Source: Paenisporosarcina sp. HGH0030
GTDB lineage: Bacteria; Bacillota; Bacilli; Bacillales_A; Planococcaceae
Assembly: GCF_000411295.1 (NCBI RefSeq)
Contig: NZ_KE150421.1
Span: 1,097,645 to 1,161,644 of the forward strand
DNA: 64,000 nt
Direction of reading: 5' to 3'
Positions 11,589 through 58,522 of this stretch are shown here, piece by piece. Position 1 is the first letter of the stretch, and every line of letters starts with the position of its first letter. The position numbers and the translations under genes were made by a program. The notes beneath the pieces were generated by a model that made no database searches, was not told where the DNA came from, and saw only the letters and a list, made by a program, of their open reading frames with translations.

Positions 11589-11617
11589 AATGTATAACAG
11601 ATTTTACTATAATGCAA
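11589..11617 (-). promoter_or_regulatory. Putative topA promoter overlapping attL
   Basis: On the minus strand TTGCAT (11612-11617), 17 bp, TACATT (11589-11594). The -35 hexamer is the end of the att core repeat, so prophage integration regenerates it rather than destroying it. Confidence 0.5.
11602..11617. other. attL core
   Basis: TTTTACTATAATGCAA, identical to 58499-58514. It lies between topA and the first prophage gene. Confidence 0.8.
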
Positions 11618-11783: not shown

Positions 11784-11810
11784 GCCCTTCCACACAAACT
11801 GTGGAGGGGC
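11784..11810 (-). terminator. Terminator of the actin operon
   Basis: GCCCCTCCACA / TGTGGAAGGGC with a 5-nt loop then GTTTTTT on the minus strand, just after the 118-aa gene. Confidence 0.88.
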
Positions 11811-11817
11811 TTTAGTT

Positions 11818-12174
11818 TTAATCCTGCATTAAATAAACTTCAAGAAGTTCCTCTGTTCGATTACGCAAACGAACATTAAGGTACCGCCTATTTTGCTCGT
11901 ATCCCCCATAAAAAAACGTATACTCGGTGGTCGTTTCATCACGCCCTACACGCAGAAGTTTCATTTTGTTCTCACGTAAATACTGTTTCGTTTCCTTTAA
12001 ATCATTTCGCACTGCCTTGATTGCCTTTTCGACTACTGCAATATACGGCCGTCCTAATTTGAATGCCCCTTTTTCAAAAACTTCTCTATCCCGTTCCAGA
12101 ATAATGAGCACCATTGGCAAATAAATCATGTTTTCAAATTGCGGTAAACTCTCAGCTGGTATTATGGCCGTCAT
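11818..12174 (-). CDS. Third protein of the actin operon, unknown
   Basis: 118 aa, no family recognised. It is soluble, with a hydrophobic segment YLPMVLIILERD near residues 18-29, a basic helical middle (AIKAVRNDLKETKQYLRENKMK) and aromatic/basic residues toward the C-terminus. Its start overlaps the ParR-like stop by four bases, so it is probably translationally coupled to the parR/parM pair and works with them. Known ParMRC loci have only two proteins, so this may be an accessory factor. Confidence 0.7.
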   Translation of the reverse strand: MTAIIPAESLPQFENMIYLPMVLIILERDREVFEKGAFKLGRPYIAVVEKAIKAVRNDLKETKQYLRENKMKLLRVGRDETTTEYTFFYGGYEQNRRYLNVRLRNRTEELLEVYLMQD

Positions 12175-12443
12175 AAGAATGACCCCATTGCTTCCATTGT
12201 ATATGCATCGGGTCGGTCATCAACAGGAGACTCCTTAGATGTTTTTTCAAAATTGAATGTGCCTCCAGAGCCTTCAAATTTCTCACGTCTAATATCTTCT
12301 TCGATTAGCTTCTTCACATATTTGCTGAAATTACGTTTCTTATTTGAAATTGGATTCAACTTTTCTGCATGTTCCAGCATCTTGATATCCAGTTCGTCCG
12401 TTAAGTTAAAACTGACAGTCTTGTTCATCCTGGTGCTACTCAT
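12171..12443 (-). CDS. ParR-like ribbon-helix-helix adaptor
   Basis: 90 aa. Residues about 8-55 fit a ribbon-helix-helix: a beta strand (KTVSFNLTDE), a helix, then NFSKYVKKLIEEDI as the second helix. A flexible acidic linker leads to the tail DAYTMEAMGSFL. ParR proteins combine N-terminal DNA binding with a C-terminal tail that caps ParM filaments. That layout, the position directly after the actin gene and the 4-bp overlaps support the role. It could be only a repressor of the operon. Confidence 0.65.
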   Translation of the reverse strand: MSSTRMNKTVSFNLTDELDIKMLEHAEKLNPISNKKRNFSKYVKKLIEEDIRREKFEGSGGTFNFEKTSKESPVDDRPDAYTMEAMGSFL

Positions 12444-13303
12444 CCACTATATGCTCCTTTCGCTAGTTCATAAAATCCAACCGCATTGGCATAGACGGGA
12501 TGAAGTTTGGCAAAACCATCACCTCGATTCATGCCAGGCACTAAAATTTCTGCGTTTGTATAATGTTCGCTCAAGTAAGGCGCAATTCCTTCCGAAATTC
12601 CTCCGCAGATATAAACTTTGTCATTTTTATGCCATTTCAATTTGGTCGTGTTTCGGATGATTCCTCGAGCAATTGAAGCCAAATCCTCTTTATTCTTCAC
12701 AGTTTCCATACCGAAATTAAATGTATCGCTGGCATTGTTGATATGTTTTTTATCCATAATTGTGGCAGCATTCACGGTTCCACTGCCAATATCAATGATA
12801 CGGACAGTACCCATTGTTGGATTGCTCCAAAATGCTCCGCTACCTTCTGGAGCCACCCCGACTTTATCAATCGTAATCTTCCGGTGAGTCCCATTTACCG
12901 TTATCGTATGAGTACCTTCGAGCATGTCGCATATGGCATTCTTCTCAGCGGGTTTATGGCGTTTAATTGGTTGGCCTGTCACAATAGCCACGTTTTCAAA
13001 GTGTGGACAATAGCGATTCAGGTAACGATTAATTCCCAGTAGAACGCGGATTTTAGTATCTTCATGGGCTTTGCTATCGCCGTACATCGTGCCGTTCCCA
13101 AAATCATCTTCGTATTCCGCAATGGATCCAGCATAGCCTCTCCGTCCATCGATTTCAAACTCCATATCGTCAGATCCAAACTGTTCCTCTACATCACGTT
13201 CAAACCAGTCGCAGATATTCGTCTTAAATTCATCAGTTCCGAACGGTCCCACCACTTTCCCTTTATGATTACCCGCATCGAACCCCAATACTAATCTTCT
13301 CAT
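12440..13303 (-). CDS. ParM/StbA-like actin-family ATPase
   Basis: 287 aa with actin-fold nucleotide motifs: phosphate-1 VLGFDAGNHKGK (residues 5-16), phosphate-2 RIIDIGSGTVNAATI (168-182) and the adenosine motif KVYICGGISEGI (229-240). VAIVTGQPIKRHK (105-117) also fits plasmid ParM relatives. Such proteins form filaments that move plasmid or phage DNA bound by an adaptor. It leads an operon with the ParR-like gene and sits next to attL, so it adjoins the integrase in the circular phage form. Length is slightly short of R1 ParM (320 aa). Confidence 0.85.
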   Translation of the reverse strand: MRRLVLGFDAGNHKGKVVGPFGTDEFKTNICDWFERDVEEQFGSDDMEFEIDGRRGYAGSIAEYEDDFGNGTMYGDSKAHEDTKIRVLLGINRYLNRYCPHFENVAIVTGQPIKRHKPAEKNAICDMLEGTHTITVNGTHRKITIDKVGVAPEGSGAFWSNPTMGTVRIIDIGSGTVNAATIMDKKHINNASDTFNFGMETVKNKEDLASIARGIIRNTTKLKWHKNDKVYICGGISEGIAPYLSEHYTNAEILVPGMNRGDGFAKLHPVYANAVGFYELAKGAYSG

Positions 13304-13324
13304 TTGAACCCATCCTTTCGTTTT

Positions 13325-13384
13325 TCCCTACATTTGCCCTACTATTCTATAAATCTGACGTGTTGTTTATGACAAATGTAGGGA
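13325..13384. promoter_or_regulatory. Actin-operon promoter with iterons (parC-like)
   Basis: The minus-strand promoter TTGTCA (13370-13375), 18 bp, TATAGA (13346-13351) is enclosed by a perfect 12-bp inverted repeat, TCCCTACATTTG (13325-13336) and CAAATGTAGGGA (13373-13384). CCCTAC occurs at 13326 and again at 13337, an 11-bp period, plus the inverted copy at 13379. ParR binds 10-11-bp iterons overlapping its own promoter in known systems, so this may be both operator and centromere. Confidence 0.6.
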
Positions 13385-13500
13385 ACTTTTTCCGCGGGGT
13401 TCTAACCCTCTCCCCCACCGCGTATACTGATTTATCTTTAGGAATTTAATTACCCGTAGGAATTATTCCCACAGAAAACACACAAAAATGGAGGTTGAGT

Positions 13501-14010
13501 ATGGAAAGAGGGAAGGGGACAGTGAGAAAGGTGAGATCAGACAAGAAAGTGGATGTGAAACCAACGATGTCGGTCGAATTAAAAAACCAACTTTACACGT
13601 TTTCGTATCTGTGCGAACTGCCAGTGAAGGATGTAGCTGAACGACTTTGTGAAATGGCCACAACATCCGAGTACATTATAGAAGATATCCGCCAGTGGTT
13701 TAGACGGGAATATCGATTTAAAAACCATATCACCAGTGGTTACCTGGAACGTCCTCGATTGAAGCTGATATTTAAGGGAGAGACAGGGAAAGTAACTATT
13801 AAATTTAAACAAGAAGCTTTTGACGCTCTTAGTTTACTCGCATTTTCACTTGACCTCCCTCCTACCACCACAGCAACCGTATTAATCAAACGTACTCTCT
13901 TCCATCGAGAATTCATGGAGCAATTCATTCATTCGGAACTACGTCATTTAAACGATCAACAAAGAAACAAAGTAAAGCTTTATTTAAGACAAATTTGGGG
14001 GTTTAGATAA
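13501..14010 (+). CDS. Unknown protein with two RHH-like repeats, divergent from parM-like gene
   Basis: 169 aa, very basic N-terminus. Start ATG 13501 follows GGAGG; an in-frame TTG two codons earlier is less likely. Two segments look alike: VKPTMSVELKNQLYTFSYLCELPVKDVAE and VTIKFKQEAFDALSLLAFSLDLPPTTTA, each a short strand then helices, suggesting tandem DNA-binding units. It is transcribed away from the actin operon across the shared iteron region. Function not recognised; a regulator or DNA-binding partner is plausible. Confidence 0.7.
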   Translation: MERGKGTVRKVRSDKKVDVKPTMSVELKNQLYTFSYLCELPVKDVAERLCEMATTSEYIIEDIRQWFRREYRFKNHITSGYLERPRLKLIFKGETGKVTIKFKQEAFDALSLLAFSLDLPPTTTATVLIKRTLFHREFMEQFIHSELRHLNDQQRNKVKLYLRQIWGFR

Positions 14011-57030: not shown

Positions 57031-57199
57031 ATTTTTGCGGTCTACTCTCGACCCGGATTAGCCAAACAGCTTATTTTCAATATATCAGAAAATTATTGTC
57101 AATTGTTTGATAAGCATCACTTAATTTACTTTTTTAATGAAAAACATCACTTTCTGTCAGTAATGGATAAATAACTGAATTTATTGTACCATAAAATAG

Positions 57200-57211
57200 G
57201 AACGGATGTTC
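57200..57211. promoter_or_regulatory. LexA (DinR)-type SOS box upstream of integrase
   Basis: GAACGGATGTTC fits the Gram-positive box GAACRNRYGTTC exactly in the core, within a larger palindrome AAAATAG(G)AAC..GTTCTATTTT. 56 bp before the integrase ATG. Confidence 0.6.
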
Positions 57212-57267
57212 TATTTTCATTACAGATATTAGAAATATTATTCGCACTAAAGAAAGGAGCAGTATTC

Positions 57268-58392
57268 ATGACATCATACAAAGAAATTGAAAAAGGAAAG
57301 TACAAAGTATTTGTTGAACTTGGTTACGATGATTTTGGAAAACGAATAAGAAAAACAAAAACCATTCAGGCCACTTCCAACCGTGATCTCAACAAAAAGA
57401 TTAAAGAGTTCGAACTAAACTGTATCGCTAAATATGAAACAGGCGATATTGAGGAAATTAACTTTAATTATTGCTTCGACCGATGGTGGAAAAATCATGT
57501 ATTATTGCATTTGTCACCAGGTTCGCGTGACGGCTATTTTTATTTCATTGACGACTTAATAGCTTATTTTGGCAACATGAAAATGAAAAAAATAAAGACG
57601 TTCCATATTGAAGAATTTTTTATTGAACAGCGAGCTCATAAGAAAAAAAGCTTAAATAATAAATTGTCCATGTTGAAGAGTATTTTTCGGAAAGCACGAT
57701 ACTGGGGACTAATTGATTCCAATCCAACTATTGATTTCAAGTTGCCCAAAGAAAAAAAGATTGAACGAGAAATCTACGATAAATCCGAACTCAAAGAACT
57801 GTTTGTTGCCGTTGGGAAGTTACGAGAGCGAGATCGTATTATGATTAAGCTGGCCGCAGTTGGTGGTCTAAGACGAGGAGAAGTTTTAGGGATTGCTTTT
57901 GAAGATATTGATTTCACCCAGAATGGTATCCATATCACTAAAAGTTTAAATTATGATCGAGTGCTTAAAGAAAAGTTTATCGGCCCTACTAAGGGTCGTA
58001 AAAAAAGATTTGTGACCTTTCCTGAACAACTTATGAAAGAACTCAAAGTTTTTTATTTTAAACAACGTGAAATGAAATTGCAGATGGGATCCTTGTGGGA
58101 AACAATCGACGGTTTTGATTTAATTTTTAGGTCTAGAGATATGTCCATAATGCATCCAATCACATTCACAAACCAGTGGACAAAAGTTTGTAAGCGATTA
58201 GGTCTGAAACCCATCGCTCTACATGACCTCAGACATTCTTCAGCATCGTATTTAATCGCTGGAGGAGAACGCGTAGATGTTGTTCAAAAGCGACTCGGAC
58301 ATGCTAATTATGAGACTACAATGAACACATACAACCATACCAACAAAGACGATCAAGATAAAGCTGCGGATGTATTCGATGATGTTTTATAA
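57268..58392 (+). CDS. int: Phage tyrosine integrase
   Basis: 374 aa from ATG 57268 after AAAGGAG (a frame from 57184 has no site). N-terminal arm-binding domain (YKVFVELGYDDFGKRIRKTKTIQAT), SAM-like core-binding domain (~60-155) and catalytic domain: Arg in GGLRRGEVLG, HDLRHSSASYL, LGHANYETTMNTYNH with the Tyr nucleophile. Performs attP x attB recombination at the dprA-topA site; attR is about 105 bp downstream. Confidence 0.97.
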   Translation: MTSYKEIEKGKYKVFVELGYDDFGKRIRKTKTIQATSNRDLNKKIKEFELNCIAKYETGDIEEINFNYCFDRWWKNHVLLHLSPGSRDGYFYFIDDLIAYFGNMKMKKIKTFHIEEFFIEQRAHKKKSLNNKLSMLKSIFRKARYWGLIDSNPTIDFKLPKEKKIEREIYDKSELKELFVAVGKLRERDRIMIKLAAVGGLRRGEVLGIAFEDIDFTQNGIHITKSLNYDRVLKEKFIGPTKGRKKRFVTFPEQLMKELKVFYFKQREMKLQMGSLWETIDGFDLIFRSRDMSIMHPITFTNQWTKVCKRLGLKPIALHDLRHSSASYLIAGGERVDVVQKRLGHANYETTMNTYNHTNKDDQDKAADVFDDVL

Positions 58393-58484: not shown

Positions 58485-58522
58485 AAAATGGTTGCATTTT
58501 TTACTATAATGCAACCATTTTT
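58485..58522 (+). terminator. Integrase terminator hairpin containing attR
   Basis: Perfect 14-bp stem AAAATGGTTGCATT / AATGCAACCATTTT with a 9-base loop, then T. The loop and half of the right arm are the att core, so part of the stem comes from bacterial DNA. Weak T-tail. Confidence 0.6.
58499..58514. other. attR core
   Basis: TTTTACTATAATGCAA, identical to 11602-11617; 19 bp before the dprA stop. Confidence 0.8.

Follow-up and report, generated by a model that had tools for sequence, protein, structure and literature searches.

The usual explanation for partition-type actins is plasmid inheritance, a need that an integrated prophage does not have. Here we analyze a predicted actin of this type and its neighboring genes in an integrated prophage of Paenisporosarcina sp. 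HGH0030, within a window of 64,000 nucleotides (contig NZ_KE150421.1, positions 1,097,645 to 1,161,644; coordinates below count from the first letter of this stretch). In a comparable setting, the AlpAC pair of Corynebacterium glutamicum prophage CGP3 has been proposed to move excised phage DNA (PMC4446434; see also PMC5539076). A ParM-like protein followed by a ribbon-helix-helix (RHH) protein has also been described in Bacillus phages B83, IEBH, and Thrax1-5 (PMC6669507, PMC8026635, PMC9703825); B83 carries repeats upstream of the pair, B83 and IEBH are described as plasmid prophages, and the Thrax phages are reported to have plasmid-like genes together with a possible integrase and a putative attP (PMC9703825). 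For the chromosome-encoded Dh-cParM1, which is likewise paired with an RHH-predicted adaptor, a role beyond plasmids has been proposed, and the text of that report contains no word beginning with "phage" (PMC12270681). CGP3, plasmid prophages, the Thrax phages, and chromosomal ParMs were what a search for ParM-type actins in integrating phages returned from a literature lying chiefly outside subscription journals. A sequence-only reading of the window had suggested that a similar DNA-transport role with an extra third component would be novel; phage actin-adaptor pairs have already been published, one of them in the integrated prophage CGP3.

We consider the locus to be, on balance, an AlpAC/ParMRC-like module of an integrating temperate phage that would move excised circular phage DNA. 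Like AlpAC, the locus lies in an integrated prophage, pairs an actin with a small, putatively DNA-binding adaptor, and has sites upstream of the operon, here recognized by sequence. Unlike AlpAC, in which the adaptor gene precedes the actin, the actin comes first, as in ParMR, and a TraY-like gene lies divergently; the likeness meant here is one of gene architecture. In common with ParMRC and AlfAB, the locus has an actin gene ahead of an RHH-type adaptor gene within a single operon, with putative sites in its promoter region; AlfA is the best solved profile match of the actin, and ParR of pB171 is the one solved fold match listed for the adaptor. It differs from them in that its carrier is an integrated phage and not an autonomously replicating replicon, in having two sites only, and in its short adaptor with an aromatic-hydrophobic end. 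Unlike the B83, IEBH, and Thrax phages as described, the carrier here is integrated, and no plasmid-type label besides the actin was noticed.

The cassette consists of three minus-strand open reading frames (ORFs) at 12440-13303 (actin), 12171-12443 (adaptor), and 11818-12174 (118 amino acids), with 4-bp overlaps between successive ORFs, as the sequence-only reading had described. The first encodes a ParM/AlfA-type actin-like protein of 287 amino acids, judged from its sequence to have intact nucleotide motifs. It matches Pfam ALP_N (3.9e-15) and phrog_691, "partition protein" (1.2e-41), and in a 33-row alignment of its relatives (A1), residues D9, G11, P112, E153, D171, G173, S174, T176, G234, and G235 were invariant in all rows. 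D9, G11, E153, D171, G173, G234, and G235 were also invariant in 34/34 rows of a viral actin alignment (A6). By analogy with ParM, we take these residues to belong to the phosphate, catalytic, and adenosine motifs. When searched against solved structures, the A1 profile returned a set of 15 sequences in which AlfA was the best match (1.8e-21), followed by CorM, ALP12, Cbc-ParM, and R1 ParM, and A6 agreed, again with AlfA as the best match. Thus, the earlier call of an actin-family ATPase with intact phosphate and adenosine motifs agrees with both residues and profiles. Dh-cParM1 matched A1 weakly (9e-4) and A6 better (1.3e-8). Actin homologues were present in 21/261 family genomes at an E value of 1e-5 or lower (own genome included; two were partial matches) and, by profile, in 23/261 at 1e-10. 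Further relatives were found in 12 phage records, 10 plasmid records, and 87 confirmed viral contigs, of which 80 were retained. In Alicyclobacillus phage MMB025 (L006, 3061-3814), the annotation splits the actin into two partition-protein ORFs.

The second gene encodes an RHH-type adaptor of 90 amino acids with a flexible linker and a C-terminal helix ending in AMGSFL, consistent with the RHH protein with a hydrophobic tail foreseen from sequence; its fold is moderately supported by a structure model. An adaptor-like gene, scored by position plus hidden Markov model, lay downstream of the actin in all 108 testable actin loci (108/108). An aromatic-hydrophobic pair stood at the C-terminal end of 63/85 distinct adaptor partners, versus 19/1198 control ORFs, and this end is likely the filament hook. 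In seven loci (L002, L003, L078, L086, L087, L149, and L152), the adaptor-like gene is followed, after a few hundred bases, by a second one. In distant relatives L189, L197, and L203, the actin-adaptor pair is followed by an ATPase that looks like FtsK/HerA by eye or by an annotated type IV transfer protein, and in L189 the adaptor reads as one ORF into the FtsK/HerA-looking or type IV transfer gene. The protein that follows the pair in L003 (6887-9145) gave no credible Pfam match.

The carrier is a complete-looking, contractile-tail prophage, integrated in the assembly. The 16-bp att core TTTTACTATAATGCAA stands at 11602-11617, the prophage end next to topA (attL), and is directly repeated at 58499-58514, the end next to dprA (attR). 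In the stretch read from same-species genome G075, a single core copy marks the empty site (L241), where both prophage flanks join at 100% identity, which places the prophage between topA and dprA. By its coordinates, the integrase ORF (57184-58392, plus strand) would come to lie roughly 1 kb away from the actin once the prophage has circularized on excision. The earlier statement that this phage has integrase and att sites agrees with the integrase ORF, the att repeats, and the empty site. In genome G127, the actin is likewise about 0.9 kb from topA. Forty prophage proteins scanned against PHROGs included matches to integrase, repressor, anti-repressor, RecT, an SbcC-like protein, a DnaD-like initiator, terminase, portal, capsid, tail sheath, tape measure, baseplate, holin, and endolysin. 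A firm case of an integrating phage with the cassette is Psychrobacillus phage PVJ1, in whose record adaptor-like genes and the divergent gene accompany the actin; PVJ1 is inducible with mitomycin C and integrates at deoD, and the text of its report does not contain the word ParM (PMC8779076).

Two putative operator- or centromere-like sites lie upstream of the actin: a proximal one at 13326-13342, centered about 31 bp before the actin ATG, and a distal one at 13369-13385, inverted relative to the first and centered about 74 bp before the ATG. Together they form an inverted repeat of 18-nt arms, 16/18 complementary and 26 nt apart, which was equaled by 0/200 dinucleotide shuffles of the 191-bp intergenic region. 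By eye, a promoter-like TTGTCA-18-TATAGA (13346-13375, minus strand) overlaps the distal site as well as the stretch that separates the two sites; a promoter scanner reported nothing at the actin promoter. Dyad symmetry was averaged over close-relative control regions (27 given, of which one was identical, leaving 26 distinct) and compared with mononucleotide shuffles, with one peak (z up to 9.5) lying 26-28 bp upstream of the actin start and another (z 4.4 to 5.9) at 66-72 bp; 13/26 regions also reached p<=0.05 singly in an 8-nt-arm test. Half-site letters vary among loci, while symmetry and spacing are kept. At the sequence level, the candidate element amounts to few repeats: two sites with conserved position near the promoter. 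An outer viral set took in 63 of the 72 later viral loci, which dereplication reduced to 55; the divergent gene was seen in none of them, and the starts of the alignments served as approximate gene starts. In these 55 loci the proximal peak persisted (z 6.0), the distal one was not prominent on average, and the paired-site similarity exceeded that of shuffles (13.1 versus 11.4 matches of 18), so the two-site element seems, on this sequence evidence, to travel with actin plus adaptor. Within the genome of strain HGH0030, the two sites were the only exact matches of their pattern, with three one-mismatch matches elsewhere versus two for a reversed control.

We propose that the small RHH adaptor binds the two sites around the actin promoter and that this binding would both shut the operon down and build a centromere-like complex. 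The adaptor's aromatic-hydrophobic C-terminal tail would then hook the polymerizing actin. Once the phage has excised or infected a cell, the only exact copies of the two sites would be on its circular genome, so that the filaments would act on this circle, positioning or distributing it during replication or before integration, as has been proposed for AlpAC of CGP3. Filament formation, the assignment of protein to site, and the timing of action are steps that we infer. The TraY-like tandem-RHH protein would bind its own nearby site and probably coregulate the shared 191-bp control region. The DNA-moving role suggested by the sequence-only reading, by analogy with AlpC, stands as the best reading, and the extra component that it included does not.

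Several points weigh against this model. Singly, the window's sites are poor palindromes (p=0.97 in the 8-nt-arm test), the averaged distal dyad lacked significance across the 55 loci that fall beyond the close clade, and classical parC arrays have more sites than the two present here. Confidence in the adaptor model was moderate (predicted local distance difference test score, 77.6; predicted template modeling score, 0.49), and its sole solved fold match among the matches listed, ParR of pB171, was weak; a profile of the adaptor gave no credible match to solved proteins by sequence. The recombinase survey carries caveats as well. Recombinases were surveyed in 50 records (47/80 viral contigs and 3/12 phage records), picked mainly by length, with some long records (such as L201, L204, and L209) left out. 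PF00589 was matched in 33/50, PF00239 in 15/50 (one a broken fragment), and at least one of the two in 45/50, a count that supports but does not prove integration because PF00589 also covers the Xer recombinases of plasmid prophages.

The alternative that survives best, although we regard it as improbable, is classical plasmid partition, with the phage or a recent ancestor being a low-copy plasmid prophage whose lysogen copy the cassette segregates. The ParM-RHH pairs of plasmid prophages B83 and IEBH, as described in the literature (PMC8026635, PMC6669507), are in line with it, as are the actin relatives on 10 plasmid records and the 5/50 surveyed phage records lacking a recombinase match. 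The prophage studied here, however, has inserted at an att site, carries an integrase ORF, and has an empty counterpart site in a same-species genome, and 45/50 related records have a recombinase match. Among the 40 scanned proteins, moreover, the replication match was to a DnaD-like/replisome organizer family, plus weaker phage "replication initiation protein" families, none besides the actin was labeled as partition, and none as relaxase. This anatomy does not fit plasmid inheritance of an integrated prophage.

Somewhat less probable still is that the cassette serves the lysogen as cargo: an autoregulated locus for exclusion, incompatibility, or regulation, directed at other elements sharing its sites and not a mover of its own genome. 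Its position past the lysis genes, near the att end and with its own control region, would suit such a locus, and so would the distance from actin to recombinase on the circle, which was within 6 kb in 28/45 records, versus 12.2 expected for random placement, and farther in 17. The widespread adaptor tail and the centromere-like sites nevertheless fit DNA movement better, and no effector-like conserved neighbor was noticed in the neighbor lists of 21 loci.

The third gene (11818-12174, minus strand) had been called unrecognized, and its 118-amino-acid product indeed gave no Pfam or NCBIfam match at E values up to 1, its match in PHROGs being a family of unknown function (phrog_34234, 1.7e-11), plus weaker PHROGs. 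Homologues occur in 210/261 family genomes, with up to 8 matches per genome, and the same gene cluster adjoins 26/29 loci of the best matches (L041-L069); one tested member of that cluster is ComK (Pfam, 9e-24), and a competence-linked function of the family is possible. A homologue lay in the DNA around 14/110 actin loci (window included), mostly upstream of the actin in the others, and in L087 and L139 the homologue is weak and lies some 0.7 kb past the actin, on the opposite strand. From these surveys, the gene is best read as cargo in the operon and not as a conserved module part. A true three-component module, in which this protein acts with actin and adaptor, is very unlikely: the overlapping coding in one operon, the terminator-like hairpin after the gene, and the homologues at those 14 loci agree with it, but the gene directly follows the adaptor on the same strand in 1/110 loci, the window only, and its family is far more widespread than the actin (210/261 versus 21/261 genomes) and sits beside comK, so it was rejected as the third component that the sequence-only reading had made of it. 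The hairpin itself (11784-11810), 3' of the operon, resembles an intrinsic terminator and was scored on the plus strand, with a T run also on the minus strand, in a scan in which shuffles gave 1.8 such matches on average.

Divergent from the actin lies a gene absent from the earlier list (13495-14010, plus strand; TTG start, with an ATG at 13501 also possible). Its product of up to 171 amino acids is predicted to hold two RHH units in one chain, as in F-plasmid TraY (PMC12117103), with which it shares 14% identity. The gene adjoins the actin in 18/20 close loci and is thus a conserved neighbor. Unlike F TraY in its setting, it sits opposite an actin operon, with no relaxase label among the 40 scanned proteins; oriT was not searched. 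No credible solved relative was found by sequence, and the adaptor profile did not match either half of the protein (probability 2.0 and 1.6). A separate palindrome-like sequence, TGGGAATAATTCCTACG (13455-13471, read on the minus strand), precedes the gene and is likely its own putative operator. Reading by eye also showed a recurrent C-rich box (CTCCCCCACCG-like) next to the gene's palindrome, upstream of the gene in linked and orphan loci. Also by eye, a basic microprotein of about 30 amino acids (MTKxExxxLAxxIxxxGxKYGIPxKKKPKK-like) is encoded on either strand between the actin and the divergent gene in long-type loci (intergenic regions of L072, L073, L074, L075, L076, L077, and L135; ORF33 of L001).

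Away from the actin, the viral contigs were searched for the divergent gene with two narrower alignments, the mixed alignment A2 having no sufficiently conserved stretch, and 0/20 orphan loci examined had an A1-type actin beside the gene. Orphan locus L123 (8214-9990) showed a weak ParM-like match of 401 amino acids (ALP_N, 21.9 bits, below the Pfam cutoff) and a possible RHH protein upstream of the TraY-like gene. On plasmids, a search with the L077 copy found homologues in 72 records, the actin-linked pSP10-266k among them. None of the six plasmid regions examined has an annotated actin, and no partner recurs in all of them; a VirD4-like/type IV transfer gene is nearby in two, and an upstream gene pair is common to two. 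On Bacillus plasmids L272 and L273, no more than about 2 kb separates the TraY-like gene from a VirD4-like/type IV transfer gene, a hint that the TraY-like gene is tied to conjugation there.

In sum, what looks new is the breadth of the cassette among recombinase-bearing phages, the two-site element, the tail motif, and the TraY-like neighbor. A broader idea, which we put forward as doubtful, is that Gram-positive integrating phages own an actin-driven DNA-transport family apart from plasmid partition, with a two-site centromere, an aromatic-hydrophobic hook, and, in one clade, a TraY-like pseudo-dimeric RHH protein shaping or gating the segrosome. The tail motif and the two-site element make the DNA-mover reading directly testable, and PVJ1, which carries the same cassette, is both inducible and integrating. 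Should integrating phages commonly have such cassettes, actin-based positioning of phage DNA would be a wider step of the temperate cycle and not an oddity of CGP3.
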